Of a DNA stretch of 36,801 nt, positions 8,731 to 34,029 are shown piece after piece. Made by a program: the position numbers and the translations under genes. The stretch is from assembly GCA_001430745.1 (NCBI GenBank), contig KQ481938.1, positions 2,081,575-2,118,375 of the forward strand, given 5' to 3'. The notes under the pieces are model-generated. The model saw nothing but the letters and a program-made list of their open reading frames with translations, had not been told where the DNA came from and ran no database searches. Source of the stretch: Auxenochlorella pyrenoidosa (lineage: Eukaryota > Chlorophyta > Trebouxiophyceae > Chlorellales > Chlorellaceae). Numbering within the stretch: the stretch's first letter is position 1; the number at the start of each line of letters is the position of its first letter.

Positions 8731-11700
8731 GAAGCCACGGAGCAGCTTGATATTAGCCCACACAGCCCGCTTGTGTCCACGGCGCTGGACGAGAATGGCT
8801 GGGTGTGCGGTGAGGCGACTGATCTTCTGGCCGTGCTTGCAGGAGCGCGCAGCGCTCACTCGCAGTGCTGGGACCAGTGCCTGCCGGCTGTGTGCTCCGT
8901 AATTTGAACCCGGTGTGGATTCCTCTTGCAATCATGCAGGAAGCAATAGCAGTGGACAGCTGGGCGTGGGCGGCGCCGCTGATGTGGCTGAGCCGCAGTC
9001 GCTCAAGGTGGCGCGCCGCTGGGCCGCCATCAGTATGGGCAGCAGCCACGCGGCCGGCGTGACAGGGCAGGGAGAGGTGTACACCTGGGGCCTGAATGAC
9101 CGAGCGCAGCTTGGCTCGCCGGCTGGGCCGGGCGAGAGCAAGGACGTTCCCAAGCGCATGGAGCTGCTGGTTGGCTGGAACGTCAAGTGAGTGCGCTGGG
9201 TGGGTGCTGCGTGCCGTAGGGATGCAGCGCAGTTGACAGCCGTGCTGGCCATGGCATGCGTTGGTCACACTCGCTGCTCCATATTCACCGCGGACCCGCT
9301 CTCCTGCGTGCCTGCCCCTGCCTCACTTGCTTGCTGCGCCCCCCCGCTGTTCCCCCTGCCAGGGCCATCTCCTGCGGGGCAGAGCACACAGTGGCCATCA
9401 CTCCCGAGGACGTCATCACCTGGGGGTCCAACGAGTATGGCCAGTGCGGGCACGGGGACAAGAGCGAGACGACGTGGGTGAAGCCGAGGTCGATCAAGAT
9501 GCTACACGAGCAGATGGTCACGCAGGTGGGGCTTCTGCCACCTGCAGTCAGGGTGCAGGTAGTTTTCAGCAGGGGGCTGGGGCCGCAGGCAGGAGGGAAG
9601 CTCAGTATGCGTGGGCCTCTAGGCATCTGTGTGTTCAGACTCAGTTGGCTGGCCTGAACCCAACTCCTCGCGTTGTGACAGGCAAGCCGTCTGCTCCATT
9701 ACCCTGCCCTGCAGGTCATCTGTGGGCAGTACCACACGCTCTGCGTCACCGCCACCTCCCAGGTCTATGCCTGGGGCCGCAACAGCAGCGGGCAGCTGGG
9801 CCTGGGCGACACGACCGACCGGAGGGGCCCCACGCTGGTTGAAGGGCTGTGGGCGCTGCCCGTGCAGCAGCTGGCAGCAGGTGGGCGGGGACGCGGGGGC
9901 TGGGCGAGGGCAAGAAGCAGCAGCGGGGTGGGCGTGCCTGCTGCATCAACGGCATATATGTTGGGCTGTCCTGCCTTCAAGCTGCTTGCTTGGCCCCCCT
10001 CTCACCCCTGCAGGCGCGTCGCACAGCGTGGCGCTGACCAGCAACGGCTTCCTCTTCACCTGGGGCAGCAATGACGCGGGCCAGCTGGGCCTGCCGCACG
10101 CCGCCGAGGTTGCCACACAGATCCAGGCGTCGCGCACGGCCAGCGAGCGCAAGCGCGTCAACCGCCGCGTCAACCAGCGCTTCCTGTCGGCCATGGCCGA
10201 GATGGGCATCCCCTCCGACCAGGCCGAGCTGGCGCTGCACGAGACGGGCAACGTGGGCGTGGAGGTGGCCACCGAGTGGCTCTTCTCGGTGCCACAGGTG
10301 GGCCGCCAGGGGCCAGGGGTGCCTGCCCGCGGTGGCGTGCACGGCAGCAGCTCTGGCCGCCGCAAGCTGTGCAGAAGCTGCGGCCTGCTGTCCGGCCCCC
10401 TTTGCGCGGCAGGATGTGCTGGAGACGCACCTGGCGGGCGAGCCGGGCACGCCACAGGAGGAGGTGGGCGCGGTGCACGACGACGACCGCGTGCTGGTGC
10501 CCAAGCGTGTGGCGCTGCAGGTGGGGCGCAAGCATGGGGCACCCGGGCCCTTGCATGCAGGGAAATGAAGGCATGCCAAGACACAGCAGCAGCTGCTTCA
10601 TCCCTCTGTTGACGCCCTTCCCCTGTGCAACCTTGCTCTGTTGTTCCACTGCCGCAGGGGGTGCGCTTTGTGGCCGCGGGCAGCTTCCACACCGTGGCTC
10701 TGACCGACGAGGAGGTCTACTCCTGGGGCGACAACTCGGCCGGCCAGCTGGGCAACCGCACCTTCCGCTCATCGGCGCTGCCCTCCGAGGTGGTCGACCT
10801 GGCGGGGCGGGGCGTGTGCCAGGTGGCCTGCGGCGCAGCGCATACGCTGTTTGTGTGCCGTGACGGCGAGGTCTATGGCTGCGGCTCCTCGGCGCACGGC
10901 CAGCTGCCGTTGGCAGAGGCCGACCCGGACACCAGCCGACCCGCGCCTGAGGGCGCGGGCCTGCTGCTGGCCACGCCGACGCGGCTGCGCCTGCGCTTCC
11001 TAGACCCAGGCGCCAGCAGCCGGGGCGCCAGCCGAGGCGGCAGCGTGCCCGTGGTCAGCCAGGTGGTGGCTGGCGCGCACTCCTCTGCCTTCCTGACCCG
11101 CGCCGCCGAGGAGCTGCCCGACGAGGCGGCGCCACGGCTCTGGGAGCGGCTCCAGTCGGCGGTGGCGGCGGCGCACGCAGCGCCCAACAACCTGGAGAGC
11201 GACGCGCACGTGCGGCCCATCGCGGCCGCAGTGGAGCGCATCTTCTCCTCTGCCGCCGCCATATCTGCTGCCTTTGGGCTCAAGGACTGCGTGGGCATGG
11301 ATGTGGGCCTGCTGGAGAGCATGCAGCGCACCATCCTGGAGCTGGAGCCGCCGCCGGCGCTCAAGAAGGATGACCCGCAGCCCACGCAGGACAGCCTGTT
11401 CCAGGTGGGGACCCGGTGTGTGTGTGGGTGGGTGGGGGGGTGGGGGGGCTGCAGGCCAGGGCGGATTTTCACCCTTCGGTGTCGTTTTGGACACAGACAG
11501 GGGAAGAGAGAGGAGTGCAGGGCCTGCTGTAGTGCTCAGCACCGAGGCAGCCAAGCCTGCCAGGCACCCTGCCCTGCCCTCCTGCAGGCCTTCCGCAAGG
11601 CCATGGACGTGCTGGTGATGGACCTGGAGCGCAACATCAAGCTGCTGGGCACGCCAGAGCGTGCGCAGGTGCGCTGGATAGGGCAGGCATTGGCATTGTC

Positions 11701-14700
11701 GTAATGTCCAGGCCAGGCTGCAGGGGAGAGCATTGTTGAGACTGCAACTACTTTGAGCCACAAGTCTGTTGACCTCGCGCGAGCTCTTCCATGCTGCAGG
11801 TACTGCTTGCGGCAATGCAGAGCCAGCTGCTGGGCGACTCGCGGGTGGCCAACACCCTCATCCCGCGCGTTTGCAACGCCGTGCTGGCTGCGCCCTCATC
11901 CACCCGCCACGTGAGCTGCCCGCCTGCCAGGGCATGCCTTGGCATCAGCGACGTTTTCGCCCCGAAGTGGCCCTCTGCTCCATCCTGCCTGCGCCCAACC
12001 CTCTCGCCTTTGATCACCCTCCCCTGCTTCCCTGGCGCGCGCAGCTGCTGGTCAAGTGGTGGGCCGAGTACCCGGCAGAGCTGCTGGAGAACCGCGTGGT
12101 CAAGCCGCTGCAGAAGTACCTGACTGATGAGCTGTATGCCACCAAGAAGCTCACCATCAGGTGTGGCACGCGGGCGCCTGGGCAGGAGGGCCAGGGGCAC
12201 AGGCGTGCAGTGCACTGCCTGTCCTGGAGGTGGCAGGCACGAATGGGAGCTTCGCTGCCAGGTCACCACTCACCAGCCTCCCTGGGTTCTCGCTGCCGCT
12301 TGCAGTGTGATGAACGTGATCAAGGTGCTGGCCAAGGTGGAGGAGGCCAACCAGCTTGGGCGGCAGCTGCCGCCAGAGGCCTTCTACAACGAGCTCATCA
12401 GGTGGGGCTGAGGGTGGGGCATGCCTGAACAGCATGGGGGCTGCACGCAGGAAAGGCAATGCACTGCAGCAAGCTTGCCTGGTCCCCTCAAAGCCATGCA
12501 CTGCAACAGGCCTTTTGCCCCCCTTGCTGTCTGCCTGATGCAACCCCACCCCATTGGCCCCCATTTTCCCGCCTTCAGCGAGAAGCTGGATGTGCTGGAC
12601 CACTACGTGGCTTGGCGCCAGACACACGACATGCCGCAGCACGCCTCTGGCTCCGACGGCCCCTTCTCCTTCTGCTCCTACCCCTTCCTGCTCAACCCGC
12701 GCGCCAAGTCCAAGCTGCTGCACACCGAGGCGCGCATCCAGATGGACCAGACCGTGGCACAGAGCCGGCTGGAGCAGCAGTCGGGCGGCGGCAGCAGCGC
12801 GCGGGGCGCACGCAGCGAGGAGGAGTGCGTGGTGCCCAACGAAAAGGCACGCCTGCTGGCGCAGACGCGCGGCGCCAGCGAGGCAGCCGCCGCAGCCGCG
12901 CCCACTCCTCTGCCCACCGGCCGTGGCCCGCCAGGCCGGCGGCGGGCAGGACAGAGCGGCCTGCGCTGGCTGTTCAACTCCCTGCGCACCTCGGACAACG
13001 GCCCCAGCCAGCAGCAGCAGCAGGCCGCGGCCGGCGTCATGGGCAGCAGCAGCAGGGTGGCCGACGACGAGCGGCGCATGATGGTGCGGCAGATCAACGG
13101 CACGAGCGATGGCGTCGGGCAGGCCTCCCTGTGGAAGCAGGGCTCGCTCAACCTGCCGGCGCCCGAGGAGTCGGGCTTCCCGGCCACACACCCCGACATG
13201 TGCATCCTCCGCATCCGCCGCAACCATCTGCTGGAGGTGAGCAGCCGGGCCTTGCAGGGCCCAGGTCAAGAGGCGTGCCTCGTGGGCGCCCAGCCGGTGT
13301 GCGATGCCCTCTCCTCACTCCCAACTCCCCTCCTGCGCCCGACAGGATGCGCTGGATGAGATTGCGCGGCAGAAGCCCAAGGACCTGTTCAAGCCGCTGC
13401 GTGTGCACTTCATCGGGGAGGATGGCATCGATGCAGGTGGGCAGGGCGGGGCTCGGGAGGGCGCAGCCCTGATGTCACCCCAGATGGGCCGACCTGCACC
13501 TGCACAGCAGCTAGCTGCCGGAAACTGCTGCTGCTGCACCATGGAGGCATCACTCCCACCCGGCCATCCTCTCCTCCTCCCACCCGCAGGCGGCGTGAAG
13601 AAGGAGTTCTTTCAGCTGCTGGTGACCGAGCTGCTGTGCCCCGACTACGGTATGCTCATCTACCAGCCCGAGTCGCGCACCTACTGGTTCAACCCCACCA
13701 CCCTAGAGGCGGACGCAGAGTTCATGCTGCTGGGCCTGGTGAGCATGCAGCGGCGGTGGCTGCTTGCATGCTGTGATGTGGAAGTCATGGCCGCTGCCGC
13801 TGGACCCCCTCGCATGCAACCCTCACTCACTGCTCCTGCCACCTGCGCCCCCCCCCCCCCCCCCCCCCACCGGTGCTGGGCCTGGCCATCTACAACGGCG
13901 TGCTGCTCGACTTCCCGCTGCCGCTGGCGCTGTATCGCAAGATCCTGGGGCAGGAGGTGAAGCTGCGGGACCTGGAGGACATGCAGCCCACGCTGGGCAG
14001 GTGGGGCGGCGGGGAACTGGGCGGCTGCCGGTGGCTAAGCAGATGTGACCAGCTGAACATCGGTGGGGGTTCGTGGAGGCGGCAGGAATGTCCTGGACTG
14101 AGGGTGCATGGCGCCTGTACAAATTGCAGGGGCTCGAGCATCCCATGCTGTCCTTCCTGCTGTGCCCCCCCCGGCAGGAGCCTACGCCAGCTGCTGCAGT
14201 ACGAGGGGCCTGGCAGCGTGGAGGATGTGTTCTGCCAGACCTTCACCGTGGAGGTGCCCGGCTTTGGGGACACGCGGGTTGTTCCGCTGCGCGAGGGCGG
14301 CGCTGACATCCCCGTCACAGGCGCGTGCAGGCCCGGGCCGGGAGGGGCAGGCCAGCCCAGCTTGGCAGAGCCGCTATCAAAGCCATCGCTGGGCGCACAG
14401 CCCGATATTCATGCCAGCCCCACTCACGCACCCCCTTCTGCCACTGCGTGCCTGCAGAGGAGAACCGGCGCGAGTTTGTGGAGCTGTACGTCGACTTCTG
14501 GCTCAACCGCTCCATCCACTCCCAGTTCGAGGCCTTTGCCAAGGGCTTCCTGATGCTGTGCGGAGGGCCGGCGCTGCAGGTGGGTGGCATCCCGCCAGAC
14601 TGCCACTGGGTATGGGCAGCCCGTGAGCGCAGCAAGCTTCTGTCGCCAAACCCTGTCGGCACTGACAGCTTGCCGCTCCTCCCTGCCCACCCCTTGCCAC

Positions 14701-15471
14701 CTGCTGCAGCTGTTCAGCGCCACCGAGCTGGAGCGCCTGGTGTGCGGCAACCCCTTCCTGGACTTTGACAGCCTGCAGAAGAATGCGCGGTACGAGGGCG
14801 GCTACTCGGCAGGTGAGCGCTGTTCAGACAAGGGAAGTGGGCGCAGCAGGGGCAGTGTTGGGAGGGCAGCTTGCTGTGCAAGGGCTGCCTGCCCCCAGGC
14901 GTCAGTGCCTCCGACAAATGTGTGCCACTGGGCAGGCATGCAAGCCATGCTGCCTGGAATGGTGCAGTGGGGTGCTCACCCACGCCATGCTGTGGCCGGC
15001 ACCCCGCCCTCCCCCCCTGCAGAGCACCGCGTGGTCCAGTGGCTGTGGCAGGTGGTGGGCGAGCTGACGCAGGAGGAGCGCAAGCTCTTCCTCAAGTTCT
15101 TCACCGGCTCGGACCGCGCGCCCATCGGAGGTCTGGGCAACCTGCGCTGCCTCATCCAAGTGAGGGGGGAAGCTGCAGGGGGGTTCGCCAAGGGCAGGGC
15201 GGGCTGATTCGTTGCTCCGTCTTGCAGGTGCTTCTCGTTCTGCTGTGTCGGGTGTCATGGGCTGCCTAACAACAACCAAAGCTATTTTCCAGTGTTGTGA
15301 AATAAGCCTGTCCCACCTGCCATGCAGCGCGACGGCCCAGACAGCAACCGCCTGCCCACCAGCCACACGTGCTTCAACAGCCTGCTGCTGCCATCGTACC
15401 GCTCCAAGGAAAAGCTGGCAGACCGCCTGCGGCTGGCCATCCTCAACTCAGAGGGCTTTGGCCTGGAGTGA
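8731..15471 (+). CDS. HERC-like E3 ubiquitin-protein ligase: RCC1 propeller with inserted UBA domain, then HECT domain
   Basis: Twenty exons: 8731-8809, 8940-9186, 9363-9525, 9715-9880, 10014-10297, 10413-10520, 10658-11404, 11588-11668, 11800-11910, 12045-12160, 12306-12401, 12579-13236, 13346-13436, 13590-13738, 13873-14000, 14178-14320, 14458-14579, 14710-14812, 15023-15159, 15328-15471. They sum to 3873 bases (1290 residues plus an unresolved N-terminus). About seven RCC1 blades are visible ([29 protein letters not shown]). A UBA domain ([19 protein letters not shown], then WLF) sits between blades at 10134-10297. A helical middle region follows, then a low-complexity insert in exon 12. 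The HECT domain starts near [15 protein letters not shown] and ends EGFGLE. The catalytic Cys is codon 15370-15372 in TSHTCFNS, 33 residues from the end as usual. HECT ligases accept ubiquitin on this Cys before passing it to substrate. Intron 14321-14457 is GC-AG, and the 13873 acceptor lacks AG. The 5' end is uncertain. Confidence 0.88.
13848..13868 (+). repeat. Run of 21 C bases at an intron-exon junction
   Basis: An uninterrupted 21-C homopolymer ends four bases before the exon that continues the HECT domain at 13873. It occupies the polypyrimidine-tract position, but the bases before the exon are ACCG rather than the expected CAG. Homopolymers of this length are prone to sequencing error. 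Confidence 0.85.
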
Positions 15472-16034: not shown

Positions 16035-17250
16035 TCACACCAGCTCGCTGTCCACGTCCCCCACCGTGACGTCATCCAGGTTGTCATCCTCTGCACCACC
16101 GCCCCCCGCTGTCCCTGCTGCTGCCTCGCCTGCTGCCCCACTAGCCTGCTGGGCTGGCTGCGCTGCAGGACTAACACCTGCAAGGGGCGTTGACTGCTGC
16201 TGCTGCTGCTCGAGCTGCTGCCCAGGCTGAACTGCAGCAGGCTGCTGGAGTGCCTGCTGCGGCTGCTGCCCTGCCTGCTGCGCTGCCTGCTGCCCTGTCT
16301 GCTGCTCATTGACGGACTGCTGCAGCGCGGCGGCCCCTGCTGGCTCTGCTTCTTCAGCAGGCTCAGCGGGCACTATGCCCGAAAGCACAGAGGGATCCAG
16401 CGCTAGGCTGGGCAGCGGCCCAGACAGCGTAGCAGCGCGCGCCTCCTCAAACAGCTTGTGCTGCAGCTCAATCAGCTGCTGCTGCGTCATGCCGCCCGCC
16501 GCGGCCAGGCCGCTCTTCCTGTGGACCAGCTTCTGGTGCTGGTGCTCCTTGTTGTCCACCTTCCACTCATCCCAAACTGCGTGGTGGTGGGGGGGAGGGC
16601 GAAGCAGCTCGCTCCCCAGTGATGATGGCCAGCAGTGGGCAGGGTGACAGGGGGCGGGGGCAGAGTGTAGCATGCACCCTTGCCGGCAGGCTACCTATCC
16701 TCCACAAGTCTCGCTGCGCAATCCTTGGCACGTAATGGCAAGAATCCTGATTTGAGAGCAGTTGGAGCGCACGTAGAGAGATTGGGCTGCACCTGAGCAC
16801 CAAGGCTGACGCTTGCCTACAGAAGGCTCAACCCAGGCGGCGCACCTGCTTTGACAGCCTCCACATACTGCTCCCCAAACTCCAGCTCCTCTAGCGCACG
16901 CACCACATCCGCTGGGCTGATGGTTGACCGCTTTTCGCGCTCGCTCACAGCGTTGGCCTGGGAGAGCAGGCGCGGGGGGCGAGGGCGGGTGCGAGGTGGG
17001 AGGCGTGGGCGCTGGGTGGCACGCATCACCAGCTATGGTGCAGGCGCGCAGCCAGGGTGAGGCCCTTATGCCTCCACGCACTGGCGCAGCCCCCTGCTGC
17101 CCCCACCTGGGTTGAGACGAGGTGCACAAACTGGTTGCAGCACTGGACCAGCAGGTCGGATGCGTCGCCCGCGATGCGCATCTCCCCCGGCAGCAGGTCC
17201 TTAATCGCCTTCTGCAGGCTGCTCTTGGGCAGTCCAACATCGTCTGCCAT
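16035..17250 (-). CDS. DR1: Negative cofactor 2 beta (Dr1), TBP-binding histone-fold transcription repressor
   Basis: Three exons, 17107-17250, 16846-16957 and 16035-16576, give 798 bases (265 residues) from ATG 17250 to TGA. Residues about 5-90 form the NC2-beta histone fold: LPKSSLQKAIKDLLP, then CCNQFVHLVSTQANAVSERE and ISPADVVRALEELEFG, followed by a conserved WDEWK-type linker and an ELQHKLFEEAR-like helix. In other eukaryotes NC2-beta pairs with NC2-alpha (DRAP1), clamps TBP on TATA DNA and blocks TFIIA/TFIIB entry. The C-terminal half is a long Gln/Ala/Pro region and an acidic end (EDDNLDDVTVGDVDSELV). It makes the protein clearly longer than the human form of roughly 176 residues. A CGCAG acceptor four bases before the ATG implies an intron in the 5' leader. 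NC2-alpha is not in this window. Confidence 0.9.
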
Positions 17251-17823: not shown

Positions 17824-20800
17824 TCAGGCTGCCTGCCGGCTGGGGCGGGGCTTGCCGCCGCCACCCTTGCCCTTGGCCTTGCTCGACGCAGACGAGGCGG
17901 TCGAAGCTAACGAGCCAGCACGCTGGAGCATGCTGCTGCGACTCGCCATCGTTGATCCGCGGCGCCTGCTGCCGCGCGACTCCTCTGCGCTAGCAGCAGT
18001 ACCAGCCTCGCTGACTGCCAGGCTGGGCCGGCGTGCTGGCAGGTTGGCCCTGCAGCTCCTTGCAGATGCTGCAGTCGCCACAAGCTGCTCCCAGGCAAGC
18101 GTCGCCTCTGCGACGCAAGCCAGCTCAGCCTGCATGGCCACCTCATCAGGAGGCACAACATAGGCCCAGCGCATACGGCATCGCTCGGTCAGCTGGGCAC
18201 ACCGGGCTGCAGCCCCCCCTGCCGATGCCTCCGCCTCGGCAACTGCCTGCAACACGCGGTCCACGTCTCCCTCATCCTCGGGCTGCTGCCGCACTGCTGC
18301 CAGCAGTGCAGCAGCCTGCAGTGAAGCAGGAGTAGGGTGTGACCAGATCTGTTGGGCTCATCACAGTAGCATGTAGCAGGGGGCGTTGAGGCAATGGTCG
18401 GGCCCGTGTGCCCTGCCCGGCAGCGCGGGCGGTGCTCCGCAGCCCCAAAATTCCCGGCAGGGCAAGCGCACTCCTAAGGCAACCTGCCCTTGCCTGCTGG
18501 CGGAGCAGCTCCAGCTGGGCTGCATCCGCCTCGGCCATCACCCCCGCGATGCCGCGTACCCAGGCCTGCGCCTCGGCCCGCACCGCAGCTGCCAGCGGCG
18601 CGCATCTGCGCAGGGGTGGGTGGGTGGGTGGGTGGGTGAAGGGGGGAAAGGGGGGGTGGGGTGCCGGCTGGCATCAAGCTGTGCAGTCCGGGCCCTGCAG
18701 TAGCACTCCCAGGTGCATTCTGGTGCCTTCTGTCCCCCGGGATCCCGGCCAGAAGCACGACAGGCACATGCCATGGGTTCCAGCAGTAACTGGCTCACCT
18801 GACGCGCACGAAGTGGACGTCCTGGTCCACCCCGGCAGCCCAGGCATCCTCCCCAACCCGCTGGTACTGCGACAGTTTCTCCTCGGCTGCCGCCCAAGTG
18901 GGCTTCCGCGTCCTGCACCAATGCAGCAGGCGGCCTCCAAACTGTCGGTGTACTGGTGGCTGGAGCTGGGAAGAGCACAACCGTGCCGCGCAACACGACA
19001 GAGCGCACCATGCCACGGGCCGTACCTGAACTTTGCCAGCGCTGCCGCTCGGTCCGTCTTCCAGAGCACCCCAAAGGCGCGCCAGCGCTCGGCCAACTTG
19101 CCCAGCCCCGCCAGCGCCAGCTGGACCTGCAAAGGGAGGCGCGGTGGCAGGAGGCACAGGTGACCCGCTGAATCAGCAATTGGTGCAAGGGACTGCCGCA
19201 CAGGCTGCTGTGCGTTAAGTCGACAAACATGCCGCACAGGGCATGCTGCGCGGGGGCGTAGCTGGCATTTGGGGTGTCACCTCGTGTTGCGCCCCCAGCA
19301 TGGTTTGGATGACAGTGGGGCTCTGCGAGACGTCTGAGAAGAAGGAGAACACAAAGGGCTCTGCATCCTCGCCGTACACAAACCTGCAGAGCAGTAGGGG
19401 CCAAGGGAGGATGGACGTTCAGGTGCTGTGCGATACCGCTCTGCACAGCACAAAAAGCCTTGGGACCTCATCGCTTCTGGTGTTCCCTTCGGCCACTGCA
19501 CACATCCTCATGAGCTGCCCAGCGGTCCCTGACTGCCAGCTAACCCCCGCTCAAGGCACACTCACTGCTCCGGAGCTTCCAGGCAGGTGCCGTCCATCCA
19601 CCTCACAAACGGCTTGGCGCTCTCCACCAGGTTGCGCAACAGGCGGCCCAGCTGGCGACCAACCTCGGCTGAGGAGGGGGACACCACCACTTCAGGGGGC
19701 AGCAGCGAGAGTGCAACCTGCACCAGGGACAGGCAATACACGCTACTGATTGCACAGTGGGCTGTTTCTGGCAGGTACGACTCCCTCCCACAGCTGGCAG
19801 TCCAGGGTAGCGACAGCTTGGCCGGCAAGGACTAGGTGCAGCAGGAGCTGTTGGTGCTGCCGCAGGAGGGAGCATGGCTGGCACTCGATGCTGTGCTAAA
19901 CCGAAAGACCGGCCGCGCCACGTCTCTCGCAAGCCATGCACGCAGGGTGACTCGGCGCTCCCGCCAAGAGCAGGTCCCTCACCCTGAACAGGGGCGGCTT
20001 GGCAGCCGCGGCAGCCTCTTCATCCTCCCCCTTGTGAGGCCCGCCGCCGTGCGGGCGGCAGGCGCGCAGGCGGTCGTGGAAGGCCTGCAGGCCTGCCACC
20101 ACAGTTCCGCACACCGCGGAGAACAGGCGCCGCTCCCAGTAGGCATAGTACCTAGCAAGGGTGGGGGGCAAAGCGGGAATTAGGTAGGGTGTGCCAGACA
20201 GGATGTGCCGGCAGAAGGGGCAGTTCAAAAGGCCATGCTGCACAAGTCGATCCCTTGGGCCGTGTCCCGCCGTGCCCACCACACAGTGAATCGACGACCT
20301 CACCCTCCCACGGTCTCAACCTGCCCGTGCTGTTGGGCTCACCCAGCCAGGCGTGGTGACTTGCCGCTGGCAGTGCCTGCCACCAGCTCCTCCACTTTGA
20401 CAAGCAGGGGGGGCACCGAGCGGTACTGTGCCACCAGGCCGTCGACCACCTGCGGGGAGGGCCAGGCACAGCAAGGCAAGGTGCCATTTGGACAGCAGGT
20501 CACGCTGAAGTTGAGATGTGTGCACTGCATTATCAAGCGCCTTGGGTGGGCCCTTGGGCATCAAGAGATGCAGGAGAAAGCTTTCGCCCAGGCCTTACTG
20601 ACGCCTGCATCCGGCTCTGCTGCCGCCCACAGCGCAAGCAGCGTGGAGCCCTCACCTGCTGCCTGTGCTGCTCAAAGTCCTCGTTAAACTCCTGCAGGTC
20701 GGGCACGTCCGGCTCAGCGGGTGGTCCAGACAAGTGCCCCGCCGCCGCTGCTGGCCCCGCCGCTGCTGCTGGCCCCGCCGCTGGCGCTACCGCAGTCCCC

Positions 20801-23800
20801 TCTGCTGCAGGGCCTTGCTCCCCCGCTGCTGGTGGAGCAGGTGCCACACCTCCAGGCTCTGCTTCTGCGCTGCCCTTGATTAGTGCTGAGCCACCAGGAG
20901 AGATCTGGCCTGGCTGCTGCGCCCCAGCAGCAGGCGCTGTGGAGGCGTGCCCTGTGCCAGGAGCTGCGCTGCCTTCAGTGGTGGCGGGCGGACTTGGAGT
21001 GTCAGGCAGCAGCAGGTGAGCCCGGCTGATGTGGTGGATAACCCTCTCTATCAGAACCGTATTCTTCTGCACCTGCGCTACCAGGGCATTGAACTGGTCC
21101 ACTGCCTGCAGGCGTTGAAGGTGGGGCGCAGCAAACGCAAGCTTCAGAGACAGCGCATGCTGCCGCCAGCCGCTTGCCCGGCTAGTCTGCAGTGTGGTGT
21201 GCTCAGCAGGCATTCATCTTGGTCAACAGCAAGCTGCCCAAGTGAGATAGTAGCATGTGAACAAGGTACTGTCGGGCATCCCCCCACCTTGTTCACTGCC
21301 GCCACAAACTCGGGGATGGTGAGCGAAGTCCAGTTCAAGCGGGTCAACCCCGGCTTCAGGGCTGCCTCAAGCGCCGCCAGCTGCTCTGACAGCAGGGCAC
21401 GCTCCGCGCTGCGCACCGAGGCTGAGGCCGCGGCATGCCGCTCCAGCATGGCGCCCAGCTCCTGGAAGTGGTCCCTGCAGAGAGCCGGGTGCCAGGGTTT
21501 GAGGGCACAAGCGCTGAACACGACGGCATAGACAGCACATCTGCCTGCGCACGGCTCATCATGCCCCATTCAAGTGCTTGGGCCCGCCCTCCGAGGGAAT
21601 GACCCGTGCACGGTCGCCGTACCTGATCTGCCCCTGCTGCAGGGCCAGGTTCACCGCCAGCGGCGGCACCGCCAGGCCCAGCTGGTCCAGGTACTTTGCC
21701 TCCCGCATCAGGCGCAGCAGGGCAGAGGGGAAGTTGATGACCACCCGCGCAGGTCCGTCAGGCCCACTGCCGCCCGCACTCTTTTGCCCGGCACCGGCTG
21801 GAGCAGAAGGCTCGTCGACAGCAGGCCCGCTGTGGTTGCAGTCTGGCGCCTGCGCTGCCTGCGCTGCCAGCAGTGGCTGCTGCAGGCCTGCCGTGATGGC
21901 AGAGTCCACAGTTGAGCACCAGGAGCCGAACCGCGCCTTTTCATACTTGAGCATGTCCCTAGCGAACTCTGTGGTGGGGAGCAGGTGAGGGTTTGAGCAG
22001 CGGACATTGTCAGAAGGCTCCAAAGCAGGAAGCTGCCGCCCGCGCACAGTCATGCGCTTCGCTCATTCCATGTAAAGGCGTGCTGTCCCTCCCAGCCACA
22101 CTCAGCCCGCAGCCACCTGCACCTGTCATTGCTGCCGCAGCTCGCTTCCCCGGGTCAATCGCCTCGAGCTGGGGGCTGAGCGCCTGCAGGCGCAGCCAGG
22201 TGCGCCGCAGGCGCACCAGCAGGCCACGGCACCACTTGATGGCGCCCGCCACGGGCGGCATGTTGCGGGCCAGCGGCGGCTTCTCCTGGCCCTCCTCGAA
22301 GATGCGGCGCACCACTGAGATCTGCGATCGGCAGTTTGCAAAGCAGGGGGTGGCTTGGCATGACAGTAAGCATGCTTGAAAACAGCCAAGGATACGCCTG
22401 CAGAGAGCAGGGGTGCTGCAATGCCGAGACAGAGCGCGAGCCTCCTGATGGCAGCCCCACCTCGCTGATGAAATGCTCCAGAATTGCTGCCAGCTTGTCG
22501 GCCATCTGCTGCTGCATGGCGCCCTGAGTCTGCACTTGGCAGCCGCGGGAAGGGAGGCGGGTTGAGCGCCAGGTGTTTCAAGCATGCTGGCCCCAGTTCG
22601 TGCCGCTGCCAAGCCCCCCAGGCGGCCGCACAGGTCTGAGGGCCCCTGGTCTGCCCTCCCGCCCCGCCCACGTGGATGCGCTGGAAGCTGTGCAGCAGCT
22701 GCACCGCGGCGTCCACGCTGCGCAGCCTGCGGAAGCACGTGTCGATCAGGTCGCGCGTGGCCAGCTTGATGTCGTCGGCGTCCCGCAGGAAGCGCTGGCG
22801 CACGGCGCGCCAGTCGGCGGCGTGGGCTCGGTCAAAAGGGTTGAAGGCCACGCTCTCCACCGGCTCCACCATGGCCTGCCCAGGCAAGGGGGGCCCAAAA
22901 GGGAGCATGTGGGTGTGGGCCAGGGGGAAAAGTTGGCGCGCAGTTGTGGTGCACGCCACGGTGCTGCTGCTCGGCTGGCCTGGGGGTTACGAGGGAGGAG
23001 ACGGTCGCACCCATAGCAGAGCGCTTGCATGTGCACAGCACACCACTGGTGGCACCCAACGTGCCTGCTGGTTATCTCTGTTGCTAACAGCTCATGCAGC
23101 TCACCGTAACCATGATGGACACCTCCTCAATCACGCTGGCGTTGCCGGTCACCGCCTTGAGCTCCAGCCCAAGGAACTGCCTGAAGTCGTCTACAGCGCT
23201 CAGCATGCCCTCCAGCTCGGCGCACACCTGGGCAAGAGCCGGGGCAGCTGGCACTGTGCACCAGAACGTGGCCATTGTTGGCCATGCCATGCATCTCAGC
23301 ATGCTGCACCAGGAAACAGTCGGCATGGAAGCAGCAGCCCGCACACAGAATGATATTCTGGCATATCGCCCACCCTTGATACAGGCCAGCCCTCGACCAC
23401 ACCTCTGCAATATGGTTAGTCTTCTCAAACAACAGCGCCTTGCTGAACTCCCAGCGCGCAGGGTGGCCCGACGCCTCGATCTTTTCTCGCTGAGCCATGT
23501 AGTGCGCCTGCCAGCCCCGTGCCACAGCCAGGCAGGTGCGCACCAGGGCCAGGCTGTCTGCTGCTGGTGCGCCGAAGAGCGTGGCAATGTTGAGCGCGGC
23601 ATCCAGGCGCTCCTGAAGGTGGCAAGCGGCGCATCAGGGATGGTGTGGGCAACAGCCAAGCCATGAGCTGTTGGACCCGCCTTCACAATCAGGCACAGCA
23701 TACATGCTCGTGCCACAGGCTGCTTCTCAGCCCTTTCTGCAAGCATGGGTACGCCCTCCCGCCCCTGCATCAAGGACTGACCTGGATTCCATATGCAATG

Positions 23801-25432
23801 CGCTCCAGCAGATTACTCATGTGCACATCGTCTCCATAGTGCCTTGAGATGACCCAGATCTGCAGCGGGGCTCAAGGTGACGATCACATGCATGTCAAAT
23901 CCAGCAGCAGGATGAACTCAACAAGAAGGACAGGCATTCACTGCTGTCCAGGCAGGCCACAAGCCAAGCCATCATCTGCTCAGCATGCGGCACAGTATCT
24001 TTGCAGCCCACCATGCGCAGGGCGTTGAGCATTGGCTGCACTGCGTCTGCCACAGCGGCCAGACTGCCGTCGGCCAGGGCCTGGAAGTGCCGCTCCAGGG
24101 TGGCCAGGAAGCGCGCATTGTCGCGTGCATCCAGCGCCAGCCGGCCCAGCTCACTGAGCTGGGCCCTGAACGAGGCTGCAAGCACAGTGTCAGTGGAGCC
24201 GCGCTGCAGGATGTCTGCCACAGCCTGCACAGCGGGTACGCTCAGCTGCTCCAGCAGGCCGCCGTACGCCTCAGCCCGGGCCCGCCAGGATTCGAGTTCG
24301 GCCAGCGGACCGCGGCCCTCAGGCTTTGCTGCAGCCTCGCGCTGCAGCGCTGCTGTGGTCAGCAGCACCCACTCCTCCACGCACTGCTCGCAGGCCAGCA
24401 CGGCCTCCTCACTGGCAGCCGCAACCTCGATGTCTGCTAGATCTACCCCAGCTGGCAGCCGCACCGCCACCTCGCTGCGCAGGTGCTTGGACGCAGCTGC
24501 CACCAGCCCTGCAAGCTTGTGTGTGGCAGCTAGCATCTCTGCAGCTGCAGGCAGTGTCGCCTCTGGCACATTTGCAGCTGAGACAGCATCGCCCTGCGAA
24601 GCGCCATTGCTGCCACTCACGGCACGTCCGGCACTGTGAATGTTGGTGCGGGCGGGCCGCTGCTGTCTTCCTGTGCTGGGCTGACTGGACAGGCCGCTGC
24701 CTGGCTGGTACGCTGCCAACCAGGGTGCCACCACGAGCTGAAGCAGCTGGTGAAGGCTTGACAGGGAGGGTCCATCAGGCAGCAGGGTGGCTGACACTTG
24801 CGATGCCAGGCCCTCTTCAGTTGTCAATGCATTGCTGCTACTACTGCCTGTTGCGGAGCGTGCCAGGTAGACTGCTGGGCACCCCGCCAAGTGCGGAGGC
24901 ATTGCGCCTGGGGTGTGCAAGCTCAGCGCACACCCAGCATGATGCGGCCTGCTGCTGCCAGTAGTGCTGCTGCTGCTGCTTGGCGTTGCTGGGTGCTCCA
25001 AGGGCTGCTGAGCAGGCTGCTGCTCTGCAGAGCTCTTTGTTGCCTCAAAGTCCGGCGTCTCTGGCTGTGCTCCCGGCTGACTCGCTGCAATGGCTCCTTG
25101 GCTGCTGCCGTCTGGTGTGCGAGGGAGTGGGCCAGGACTGCCGCACTCCTGGCTGCTTGCCGGCGCTAGCGCTTCTCTAGGCGAGGCGGCTGGCGTCTCT
25201 ACTGGCGCTACGCACACTAGCACACCTTCCAGCCCTGGAGCAGGGTGTGGCGGCCGAAACTGGATCAACCGAGGAGGGAGCGGGGCAGGCAGCTGTCGCC
25301 TCGAAAGCCTAACTCACCTCCCGCGGCCAGTGCATCCAGCAGCTCGTAATTGTTGACCTTGGACGCCAGGCAGCACCCCCTCCAGTCCAGCAACTGGGCC
25401 GCCCGCGCCAGCAGCGAGTCGGCGGGGCGCAT
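17824..25432 (-). CDS. Tail-only dynein heavy chain-like protein (axonemal type DHC N-terminal region), no motor domain
   Basis: Nineteen exons, high to low: 25358-25432, 24012-25259, 23782-23859, 23403-23612, 23105-23227, 22672-22875, 22461-22529, 22123-22321, 21623-21968, 21288-21474, 20656-21105, 20343-20449, 19983-20151, 19566-19717, 19281-19383, 19026-19126, 18799-18912, 18494-18605, 17824-18315. They sum to 4539 bases (1512 residues). Residues about 360-1440 follow the dynein heavy-chain tail: ESWRARAEAYGGLLEQL, IWVISRHYGDD, FNPFDRAHAADW, KYLDQLGLAVPP, LNWTSLTIPEFV, PLFRVALSLLPP, RWRAFGVLWKTDRAAAL. The tail of a normal chain of about 4500 residues holds light/intermediate chains and the docking site. 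Here the match stops before the linker. The protein then ends in a Ser/Arg/Lys-rich stretch and stop, with TGTAA about 30 bases on. Residues 26-330 and 940-1040 are low complexity. Exon 1 and its donor (AAG|GTCAAC) are the least certain part. The intron at 18316-18493 is GC-AG. Confidence 0.85.
18613..18638 (+). repeat. (GGGT)n tract in a dynein-tail intron
   Basis: Six GGG runs each separated by a single T lie directly upstream of exon 18494-18605 in the minus-strand sense, where the run reads ACCC and serves as its pyrimidine tract. On the plus strand the pattern fits G-quadruplex formation. Confidence 0.8.
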
Positions 25433-25684
25433 CCCGAGTCCGCTGGCCCAATGGGTGGCATACAATAAATGTGCAGGCTTGGAGACAGCGGGAGTATCTG
25501 CTGGTAATCAAACGAGACGCCTTGACTTGAGGTGGTCATACCTGCTCTGTCTGCTGCGCTAGGAGAACGCCCGTTCTCTCTCTGTTCACCTTGTGTTGGC
25601 ATCAACCAGCGCCTGCCGATAGGCGATCGCAGCAAAACCAGGGGAGACGCGAATACGCGATCATTCTCAGCGCCTGCTGGCGAC
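25433..25684. promoter_or_regulatory. Bidirectional promoter between the dynein-tail gene (-) and SGT1 (+)
   Basis: Only about 250 bases separate the two start codons, so both promoters must share this space. It is less GC-rich than the genes. It holds a CCAAT box (25448-25452) and a perfect inverted repeat GAGAACG-CC-CGTTCTC at 25563-25578. No TATA box is obvious. Roles for these elements are inferred. Confidence 0.5.
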
Positions 25685-28600
25685 ATGGGCAGCTTGTTGG
25701 AGCAGGCGCAGGCGGCAGTCAAGTCACGGGAGTATGAGCGCGCCTTGGATCTGTACACCCAGGTCTGGCAGGCCAAGCCAACATGTTCCAGAGTTTGGTA
25801 CACTCGCCGCTCTAGCCTCTGCCGTCAATCTTGATGAGCTGACCAAATCGGCAGGCATGGTATGCACCGGTCGCGAGGTCGCCGAGCGCGCCAGAGGAAG
25901 TCCGCCGCCTGCCGCCTCTCCTGCTGCCTGCTGCCTGCTCCACCCGGTGCGCTGCCAACAGAAGCTTCGCGTCCTTTGTCTCTGCAGGCCGTGGATGCCG
26001 AGCCCACAGCGGAGGCTCTGGCAGGCCGTGCTGCAGTGAACAACAAGCTGAGCAACCACATGGAGGCGGCCGCGGATGCCAGCCGAGCAGTGGAGCTGGA
26101 CGGGAGCCTGGCGGCAGCACACCGCGAGAAGGGGTGGGTCCCGCCGCTTCTTGCTTGGGTGCAATGCCGCTGCTGGGTGATTGGCGTCAGCAGCATTGTC
26201 GCATGATGCCGGGTGGGTTCTTGCCTCTCTGCTTCTGCCATGGAAGGCGGGTGGGCTCTTGCCTCTCTGTTGCTGCCATGGAAGTCCCCAGCCCGCCTTC
26301 GCCATGCACTGCCACGCCCCTTCTGCGTCCCTCGCAGCCCCTCCCTGCGGGCATGACATGCCGCCCACGCGCTTCATGCACCCTTTCACCCTGCCGTCTG
26401 CCTGACCTCCGGCTGCAGCCTGGCCTGCTATCACCTGGAGGAGTTTGAGAGTGCCTTGGATGCTTTCCAGCAGGCCTGCTCCCTGGAGCCCTCTAAGAAT
26501 ATCCACCGCCAATGGCTCAACATGTGCCGCGTGCAGCTGGGGGGTGAGCCCTGGCATGCCCGGGCTGCTGCTGGGCTGGGCAGGTGGGGGCTACAGGAGG
26601 GGATGCCGTCTGCCCGTGGGGGAAGATGCTGGGGTGTTGGGGTGACGGGATCTGTCCGTGGCCCGCACCCACCTGCCTGCAGAGGAGCCGGAGCAGCCGG
26701 TACGCAAGTACGAGCTGCCTGACGACGCCCGTGCGCCAGCGCCAGCGGACGAAGGGCCCTCCACCTCTGTCGGCGGCAAGGGCGGCAAGGTCGGCAAGGT
26801 CGGCGACCTCACCCTGCAGGGCGAGCAGCTGCAGGCCTTCCTGCGCGCCGCGCAGGCAGGGCAGCTGCCGGCATCGCTGAGCGGGGCGGCGGGGGCTGCG
26901 CCAGTGATTGAGGAGATAGAGGAGGGCAGCGACAAGCCAGTTCATGCCAAGGTGGGGCGATAGTGAGCGCTGCATGGCAGCCCGCAAGCCGAGCCGAGCT
27001 CGATCATGACGGCCTGTGCAAGCCTGTTGCCTACTGGGTCACTTGCTCATGCTTGATGCTTTGCGCCATGCAGGTGCACTTCCATCCCCTTCCATCCTTG
27101 CCCCTCATGCCCTGCAGGTGGATGACCCGGAGTTCTCCAAGTACTGGAAGGCGCCCATCGCAGGTGCCTGCTGCCGGGGATGGGGGCCAGAGCTAATCAC
27201 AGCACCGGCTGCCCTGGAACAGCTGGTCGGCTGTGGGCAAGCCTGGCTTGCACCCGTTTCCGCGCCTCTCCTCTCCAACTGCCCTTGCACAGCACCAACT
27301 GTCTGGCATGTGGATTCAATCCCGCCCTCCTGCCGCCCATGCTGCAGCCTCGGCGGCTGCCAGCATCCCCGACAAGCCAGCGGGCATCAAGTACCGGCAC
27401 CAGTGGTTCCAGAGCCCAGACCGAGTGGAGGTGGGTTAAAGGGGAAGGGGGCCTGCCAGGCGGGGTCCCCACTCAGCTCACCTGCCCTGTTGTATGAGGC
27501 CTGCAACATGAGCTGGCTGCCCAGCAGGAGTCTGGGCCCCCAAGCGTGCATGGCCCCTGGCCACAGCAGGCGGCGCCGCTGAGCCCGGGCGCTGCGCGGG
27601 GCTCGCCCCGGTGCCTCCGCTGCCTGCCCATGCTCCCGCTGCATCGGCTTCTCCCTGCCGTTGCCGGCAGGTCAACATCCTGGCCAAGGGGCTGAAGAAG
27701 GAGCAGGTGGAGGTGGCCATGGAGGAGCAGCGGCTGCGTGTGGCCACCAGGGACGCAGACGGTGGGTGCGATGGGTGCACCCCGCCGAGGCACCATGCCC
27801 GCCGATGAGCTGTGCGAGGCACGTGTGTGAGCTTCCTGCCTGCGGGACAGTGCCCTGGCTCCCCCAGCTCGCGACCCCTGCCCCAGACCTCGACACCCCT
27901 GGGTCGTCCCTGCCCGGCACCCGCAGGCCAGGAGGACTTCTGCCTGGACCTGCAGCTGCACGCGCCCATTGTGCCCGCGGAGAGCCGGTTCGAGGTGCTG
28001 GGCACCAAGGTGGGGCTGCGTGCAGGTGGTGGGGGGAGGGGCCGGTTGGTGGTGGTGGTGGTGGTGGGGTGTGTGTGGGTGGGTGTGTGTGTTCAGGTGG
28101 GGGCGCACCAGCCTAGGGTGCATGCCCCTATCTGCTGCGCCGCTGCGTTGCTGCGCTGTTGCAGGCATGATGGCAGGCATCGCGCCGCAGGAGGCAGCCC
28201 TGCATGCCTCCGCTGCCCGACCAGCAGCTGACGATGCTGCGTTGCGCCCACCGGTTTGCAGGTTGAGATCAAGCTCAAGAAGGCGCAAACCGGGCGGCAG
28301 TGGCCCGGCCTGGAGGCAGGCAGTGCTGCTGCTACCGCCGCGCCCGCGGCACCCGCTGCGCCCGCCGCACCCGAGCCGCAGGCTGGGGCAGCGCCTGCAG
28401 CCGCCGGGGAGTCGGCTGCTGCGCCGGCTGCGGGGCCTACCTCCGTGTATCCGTACGCTGGGTGAGCAGCTGGGCTGGGTGGGAGCACAGCACCTTGGCA
28501 GGCGGCCCCCCGCAGGCAGACCCGAGGCGCAAGCTGCTGCAGGCACATGTTTGCATCCGATGTTTGTGGTGCGCTAGGCCTCGCCTGCCTAGCCCGTCTT

Positions 28601-32700: not shown

Positions 32701-33808
32701 CACCCAGCCATGCCTGCGGCCAGACGCATGGGGGCGAGTGCGCAAGCAGGCTTGACATCACTTTTAGAATACCCAGGACCCCGGCCCCGGCCCCGGCCCA
32801 GCCCGCCTGAAGAAGAGCAGCAGCGGCTCGGCCTGCGTCCACACCAACGCGATGAGCACCGCCATGGCAGAGGTCAGCAGCAGCGCCCGCTGGTACACAA
32901 CCCCGACCAGCCGGAAGTTCCTCGCACCATAGGCCTGGCTGCGCATGGTGAGAAATTGTATTGAAGGGGGCCCTGAGTGCGAGGCTGCCTCTTGCATGCC
33001 CCAGGTGGGCAGCGCAGCGCCTAGCAAGCGTGCGATAGGCGGGCGGGCAGGCGGGAGGGCGAGCAACGGCAGGCCGGCTGCGCACCCTGCCAGCGTCTCC
33101 ATGGCAGTGGCAAAGCCCATCAGCAGGCTCATGCCTGCGAGTTGGGTGGGTGCAACCAGGACACTGGCACGCACGGCACCGAGGCTGGGAACAGGCGGCG
33201 CGAGGGTGCGGCCCCGTCTCCACCCAGAGCTCCACCCAGGGTTTTCCAAACCTCTGCGCACACGCCACCACGCACGCCAAGACCTGCCCTGGCACCTGTC
33301 CGCTCAAAGTCTATGCACCAATCACGCCTGCAGGCTCACCAGTGACGTTGAAGATCGATGTCCCCAGCACCACTGAGCTGAGCTCAAAGGACCCCAGCCG
33401 ACCGGCGGCAGCCAGCACAACCACGCCAATGGCAAAGGCCGCCAGGTTGGTCACCGACATAGGCAGCGCCAGGGCAGACAGGCTGCACCCACGGGAGGCA
33501 GGAAAGAGGAAACGTTGCGACACCCTCGGCACCGGCAGGTTGCGGCAGCGCCACCTCTCCGCCCTGGCAAGCACCGTCCCGTCGCTCACTTGCGCGCCTC
33601 GTGAGCTACAGAGGCCCAGCGGCCGCCGCCCGCCTCTGCTGCATCTGCCGCCGCGTCGCTGTGGGGTCCCAGGTCGGCGCGCCTGCGGCCGGGCCGCCCG
33701 GGTGATGACAGGGAGCGGCTAAAGGCGGCCGAGCCCAGGGGGGAAGACAGGGCGGCCAGGGGCGACAGCAAGCTCGCCTCCTCGCGTGCCTCTCGCCGAG
33801 GAGAGTTT

Positions 33809-33856
<48 letters not shown>

Positions 33857-34029
33857 CCATGGTTAGGCAAGCCTCCATTTGCATGTTGCTGGAAATCCTC
33901 TTGCTGTGCTCCTGCAGCTGCCGCTGAGGGCAGCGGCGGCGGCGGCGGAGAGCCTGGCACGCGCAGGCGGGGCAGCATCGGCATGGTTGGCATCTGATCC
34001 TCCGCCCGGCCATCTTGCCCTGGGGGCAT
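29737..34029 (-). CDS. MATE-family efflux transporter with poly-Q N-terminal extension
   Basis: Fourteen exons, high to low: 33590-34029, 33340-33482, 33086-33134, 32807-32938, 32515-32623, 32148-32276, 31810-31934, 31529-31567, 31277-31368, 31080-31144, 30799-30925, 30404-30593, 30158-30215, 29737-29997. They total 1959 bases (652 residues). MATE signatures: SLLMGFATAMETLAGQAYGA near residues 195-215, PALLGQGVFESSKRYLLAQ, GLPSVAMICCEWWTFEAMIL, VSGYALACSTRVSNSLGAG at the start of the second half, and GLWWGLVLVN near the end. Many hydrophobic segments fit the usual twelve helices. The family exports organic cations, toxins or citrate in exchange for H+ or Na+, at the plasma membrane or vacuole. 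Residues 1-146 are a Pro/Ser/Arg-rich cytosolic extension with 15 consecutive Gln. The last exon is a hydrophilic tail. Introns at 30216-30403 and 32624-32806 appear to be GC-AG. Substrate and localisation cannot be told from the sequence. Confidence 0.9.
31051..31073. repeat. CA/GT dinucleotide repeat beside a MATE splice donor
   Basis: A CA repeat (one CG interruption) lies within ten bases of the minus-strand donor at 31079. In the transcript the intron therefore begins with GTGCGC and a GT-rich run. Confidence 0.8.
33811..33855. repeat. (CTG)15 / CAG trinucleotide repeat encoding poly-Q in the MATE gene
   Basis: Fifteen perfect CTG units on the plus strand read as CAG (Gln) in the first exon of the MATE gene. 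A pure repeat of this length is likely to vary in length between strains. Confidence 0.95.

Follow-up and report, generated by a model that had tools for sequence, protein, structure and literature searches.

What is left for a dynein heavy chain to do once its motor has gone? The question is raised by a gene on the minus strand (25432..17824) of a 36,801-nt stretch of Auxenochlorella pyrenoidosa contig KQ481938.1 (the window; all gene coordinates are window positions), which encodes a dynein heavy chain tail and nothing beyond. Comparison with its relatives supports an intact, conserved tail-only gene of the 1-alpha type with a common truncation point. The explanation that we favor, with a probability of about 0.64, is a natural and conserved tail-only version of the I1/f inner-arm 1-alpha chain, whose product most likely serves an axonemal dynein arm as a structural subunit without motor function, in algae that are not known to swim.

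A dynein heavy chain gene that ends before the linker

In our hand-built model, the gene has 19 exons whose 4554 nt encode 1517 amino acids in one phase and close with a single terminal stop. The intact splicing and single-phase coding chain described in the initial annotation both hold, although the length given there (4539 nt) falls 15 bases short of our count. Of the 18 introns, 17 are GT-AG; the exception is the last, intron 18, with GC-AG. Splicing was also checked with a dynamic-programming model of codons and splice sites, which was trained on the same exons and is therefore not independent. Of the 19 exons, 15 came out unchanged; exons 2, 11, 14 and 19 were divided or shortened, and three micro-exons appeared that our model lacks. 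The DHC_N1 profile, which the initial annotation had proposed as a check on the tail, matched four of the six open frames tested at the gene. The profile of the linker (DHC_N2) had no match anywhere in the GC-rich window, whose best protein matches are of Chlorella type.

Homology to the Chlamydomonas 1-alpha chain (P0008; DHC_N1 at residues 311-873, DHC_N2 from 1383) ends near P0008 residue 1306, about 75 residues ahead of the linker, and gives way to a Ser/Arg/Lys-rich end. A TGTAA (17794-17790, minus strand) lies 30 bases beyond the stop and is a putative poly(A) signal, one of four copies on the minus strand of the 36.8-kb window. Directly downstream on the same strand is an NC2-beta-like gene (approximate extent 16035..17250) with a histone-fold domain (CBFD_NFYB_HMF), whose ATG at 17250 is 574 bases beyond the point where the tail gene ends. 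The succession of basic end, stop and TGTAA is thus as first annotated, and there is indeed no room for a motor before NC2-beta. The window contains zero N letters, and the order of tail and NC2-beta is also found in Chlorella sorokiniana.

Identity, relatives and selective constraint

Scores and phylogeny narrow the axonemal-type assignment of the tail to the I1/f 1-alpha chain, and by sequence comparison the window gene is orthologous to 1-alpha of Chlamydomonas and DNAH10 of animals, with which it shares DHC_N1 and the helices that follow. The spliced protein matched chain 8glv_Cn of the PDB with 817 bits, up to tail residue 1436. We identify 8glv_Cn as 1-alpha because its length of 4625 amino acids equals that of P0008, which is named 1-alpha, and because the two scores are nearly equal (817 versus 819). 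The tail scored 519 and 559 bits against chains named DNAH10, 577 against a 4583-amino-acid chain listed under another name, 176 against outer-arm gamma and 129 against 1-beta. In the best local alignment, its identity to P0008 reaches 42%. Unlike P0008, which has the linker, AAA modules, stalk and C-terminal domain, the window chain ends before the linker.

A first search for relatives, restricted to proteins of about 0.55-1.75 times the query length and scoring only the 7999 candidates that shared most words with it, gave seven matches. The closest three were P0001 from C. sorokiniana (64% identical), P0002 from C. ohadii (66%) and P0003 (56%), whose tails have the same aligned end point as the window tail. 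Two bird proteins named DYH10 and two chains that have linker and AAA1 domains made up the rest. P0001, named 'flagellar inner arm dynein 1 heavy chain alpha', and P0002 represent the same tail-only gene as the one in the window; the P0002 database entry differs in missing internal stretches that its relatives keep. P0001 runs from the dynein tail directly into NC2-beta. Its record appears to be an automatic fusion of these two neighbors, still labeled as the complete motor chain, and this public record may need correction. Because NC2-beta lies directly downstream of the tail in C. sorokiniana too, an assembly error is unlikely, and the three other tails argue likewise. P0003 has an unbroken frame of 1307 codons (3921 bases), and its contig is no longer than 5206 bases; compared with the 18 introns of the window gene, this suggests that the contig is a cDNA.

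When the search was widened to full-length chains, 24 proteins were listed. P0001 was followed by Chlamydomonas, Tetrabaena and Selaginella 1-alpha chains, animal DNAH10 and several proteins without a species name; no full-length chain with a Chlorella name was among the 24. A query with the linker-AAA part of 1-alpha matched 1518 of the 1520 proteins scored. The best 120 of these 1518 include Trebouxia (74%) and Apatococcus (65%), both of which keep a full-length 1-alpha, and contain no Chlorella-named 1-alpha motor, with many of the 120 bearing no species name. A fast-evolving Chlorella 1-alpha motor below rank 120 is possible. The retrieved proteins also included P0036, a 1-alpha chain of 3530 amino acids without DHC_N1 that starts near a scaffold edge and is probably a truncated gene model. 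We rejected it as the lost motor: the model begins within the distal tail and shares 81% identity with Bryopsis, which marks it as an ulvophyte-type fragment.

We then compared P0003 and the tails from the window and C. sorokiniana with all 143 retrieved proteins. Among these, the full-length chain nearest the window tail was Chlamydomonas 1-alpha (852 bits), and the three tail-only relatives of the window tail scored 1013-1339. A tree of 20 sequences unites the four tails in a single clade (support 100). This clade lies within the core-chlorophyte 1-alpha group (96), well away from beta, and has Apatococcus as its weakly supported sister (63).

Because the tails form one clade and have a common end point, they would share a tail-only ancestor, and identity between two tails at a given site therefore reflects the rate of change after the cut. 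We set site classes by conservation in nine full-length green chains and compared the window tail with each relative. At sites conserved in at least 90%, the window residue was identical in 173 of 203 cases for C. sorokiniana, 163 of 195 for C. ohadii and 159 of 205 for P0003. The corresponding counts were 292/381, 267/349 and 217/388 at sites conserved at 60-90%, and 308/553, 282/507 and 224/602 at sites below 60%. High identity at the conserved sites argues that selection on the tail fold went on after the motor was lost. By segment, identity to C. sorokiniana was 0.34 over residues 1-250, 0.69-0.75 in four segments spanning 262-1250, 0.60 over residues 1250-1436 and 0.27 in the new end. The ratio of distal to core identity was 0.59-0.60 in the three pairs with P0003, 0.81-0.91 in the other three tail pairs and 0.61-1.01 in 66 full-length pairs. 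With the distal drop confined to the P0003 pairs, we do not claim a relaxation concentrated beside the lost motor. Neither the splice model nor the site-wise constraint revealed pseudogene features in the window tail gene (frame damage, splice damage or loss of constraint).

We also searched the source genome (51.6 Mb in 65 contigs) for other dyneins and ciliary genes. These searches cover its readable part: 6 of 19 100-base probes were all N, so about one third of the genome may be masked and absences are provisional. DHC_N1 matched only in the window and on contig C56, and DHC_N2, AAA_6, MT, Dynein_C and the 1-alpha motor piece matched only on C56 and C19, with the AAA_6 profile also giving below-cut-off matches in 3 of 14 prokaryote controls. 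The search for linker and AAA exons suggested in the initial annotation thus led to two loci, neither of which is the missing half. The first, C56:543000-573600, is a full-length outer-arm beta chain (7kzm_B, 2472 bits), whose rough model also takes in an upstream gene that looks DnaJ-like. The second, C19:112000-146000, is an outer-arm alpha (kelch) chain with a full motor. The rough models at both loci span N-terminal parts, P-loops and the C-terminal domain. No second half of 1-alpha (linker, AAA+ ring, stalk and C-terminal domain) was found in the readable genome. Neither 1-beta nor outer-arm gamma was found there, and the only DHC_N1 chain besides the window gene is outer-arm beta.

The C19 chain also departs from the usual plan of a heavy chain, in the reverse direction from the window tail: it keeps the motor and has kelch repeats in place of the tail. 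The repeats were found upstream of the motor in all four frames tested, DHC_N1 is absent, and the best match is to outer-arm alpha (7kzm_A, 1569 bits versus 577 for 1-alpha). On these grounds we rejected C19 as the missing 1-alpha half. A kelch-type third outer-arm chain, with kelch repeats instead of the usual tail, is described in passages of PMC12338079, whose main text lacks the word Chlorella.

Among ciliary genes, IFT46 had a match above the family cut-off at C53:109102-109607, with one stop in the first piece that may be an intron. This match contrasts with the report, in passages of PMC12633428, that intraflagellar transport genes are mostly or wholly missing in Chlorella variabilis. 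The radial spoke protein RSP4/6 had no match in the readable genome and none in 14 control genomes either, so the search lacked a positive control. DRC4 gave three weak pieces, none above the cut-off, and below-cut-off matches in 4 of 14 prokaryote controls as well.

Exon structure and neighboring genes

All exons lie on the minus strand. Exon 1 (25318..25432) carries the start codon and the start of the N-terminal, dimerization-like region, placed by the splice model and by alignment with green-algal 1-alpha N termini. Exon 2 (24012..25234) holds the remainder of this region and the start of DHC_N1. The splice model and the DHC_N1 profile together place exons 2, 4 (23403..23612), 6 (22672..22875), 8 (22123..22321), 9 (21623..21968) and 10 (21288..21474), the last of which contains the DHC_N1 end and LNWTSLTIPEFV. 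The intervening exons 3 (23782..23859), 5 (23105..23227) and 7 (22461..22529) come from the splice model, as do exon 11 (20656..21105), which carries an Ala/Pro/Gly-rich insert, and exons 12 (20343..20449), 13 (19983..20151), 14 (19566..19717), 15 (19281..19383), 16 (19026..19126), 17 (18799..18912) and 18 (18494..18605), which is followed by the GC-AG intron. Exon 19 (17824..18315) encodes the last tail helices, aligned to about residue 1446, and then the Ser/Arg/Lys-rich end and the stop.

Upstream of the tail gene is a plus-strand TPR-type gene with its ATG at 25685, a first frame reading MGSLLEQAQAAVKSREYERALDLY and a weak TPR_2 match in one later frame; we take it to resemble SGT1. The two genes are divergent, and the 252 bases between their start codons (25433-25684) are a possible shared promoter. 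Elsewhere in the window, RCC1 repeats followed by a HECT domain (9200-15300, plus strand; two frames tested) indicate a large HERC-like ubiquitin ligase gene, and a MatE transporter exon lies at 32764-33303 on the minus strand, with a long Gln run upstream near 33900.

Role of the tail and competing explanations

Sequence comparison supports an origin of the tail-only 1-alpha chain in the common ancestor of these Chlorella-type algae, where the linker, AAA+ ring, stalk and C-terminal region were lost. On the same evidence, the tail exons would have stayed a working gene with a new short basic, Ser-rich end and its own 3' end. The tail protein may associate with the tail of a second heavy chain, bear intermediate and light chains, and anchor the complex on the doublet. 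Of the roles put forward in the initial annotation, docking scaffold, spacer and reused structural protein are all possible. Force would be supplied by the partner or by outer-arm motors and none by the tail itself. A dynein arm built in this way would most likely sit in a cryptic flagellum. Its partner could be 1-beta, if this chain is in the masked part of the genome, giving a one-headed I1. If both gamma and 1-beta are really absent, the partner could be outer-arm beta, and the result a hybrid arm.

The window gene would then be nature's parallel to Chlamydomonas strains in which a heavy chain is missing only its motor. Myster et al. in 1999 reportedly made a similar study with a motor-less 1-alpha transgene. 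According to passages of PMC6249098 and PMC11496786, strains oda4-s7 and oda2-t have an outer-arm beta or gamma heavy chain without its motor. As with the window gene, a heavy-chain tail is produced without the motor; however, the strains are laboratory mutants of outer-arm chains, whereas the window gene encodes another chain and is fixed in a lineage. No description of a natural tail-only dynein heavy chain, in Chlorella or elsewhere, was found in the literature searched by titles, abstract openings and some passages.

Several points weigh against a structural subunit of an axonemal arm. The protein and its place in the axoneme are predictions from sequence. The N-terminal region aligns with Chlamydomonas at about 20% identity, and shares the DGPSLSSLHQLL-type stretch, so the dimerization part is poorly supported. 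The tails have changed faster than full-length relatives: their distances to Bryopsis are 1.70-1.80, compared with 0.85 in Trebouxia and 1.50 in Apatococcus. The masked bases may conceal a separate 1-alpha motor gene, 1-beta or gamma. IC97/CASC1, sought as an I1-specific partner, had no match in the readable genome, which shows little because it had none in the 14 control genomes either. Finally, C. vulgaris is described as non-motile in PMC6972661, passages of which also count 114 of 195 CiliaCut genes in this species and suggest gametes with motile flagella.

The non-motile description also fits a role outside the axoneme, in which the tail would be a cytoplasmic or centriolar scaffold (e.g., one that attaches to light chains or to the ends of microtubules) in cells that are never flagellate. 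Such a change of job would agree with the rapid divergence of the tails and with their new basic, Ser-rich end, and also with the missing RSP4/6 match, within the limits of that search. However, the sites conserved in axonemal full-length chains remain conserved in the tails, and the outer-arm alpha and beta motors and the IFT46 match are still there. The same retained genes make doubtful the suggestion in the initial annotation of a cell without beating flagella, and we consider a scaffold outside the axoneme unlikely.

A hybrid arm is a more speculative version of the axonemal role, and we regard it as rather improbable. In it, the tail of outer-arm beta would pair with the motor-less 1-alpha tail where gamma usually stands, and alpha and beta would drive this simplified arm in a short-lived gamete flagellum. 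The idea arises because outer-arm beta and the 1-alpha tail are kept, whereas their usual partners, gamma and 1-beta respectively, were not found in the readable genome.

It is very unlikely that the tail is the leftover of a decaying gene that has lost its motor and is on its way out. Its faster change relative to Trebouxia and Apatococcus and the low distal-to-core ratios of the three P0003 pairs would fit such decay. On the other side, the frame is open across 19 exons, three relatives also have long open tails, sites remained strongly constrained once the motor was cut off, and the other three tail pairs have no distal drop. The initial annotation had argued against simple decay, and this evidence bears it out; its tail-only claim is likewise strengthened by the three relatives and the NC2-beta neighbor common with C. 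sorokiniana.

A heavy chain split into two genes, or a gene cut by an assembly or annotation artefact, is the least credible alternative and highly improbable: although part of the genome may be masked and the C19 motor without DHC_N1 at first resembled the other half, C19 is outer-arm alpha, the tail-NC2-beta order is repeated in C. sorokiniana, the window is free of N, and the best 120 of the 1-alpha motor matches, many without a species name, include Trebouxia and Apatococcus and no Chlorella name.

A conserved tail-only 1-alpha chain would bear on how dyneins are viewed in these algae. Non-flagellate species, including three Trebouxiophyceae, are said in passages of PMC7455551 to lack DHC1-7 completely, a statement that is qualified by the DHC1-type tail that persists here. 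Heavy chains are treated as motors, and a lineage that keeps the tail under selection indicates that the tail alone can be worth keeping. The laboratory question of what a headless heavy chain can do thereby becomes a natural experiment, and the tail gene provides a handle on the question of whether Chlorella forms flagellate gametes.

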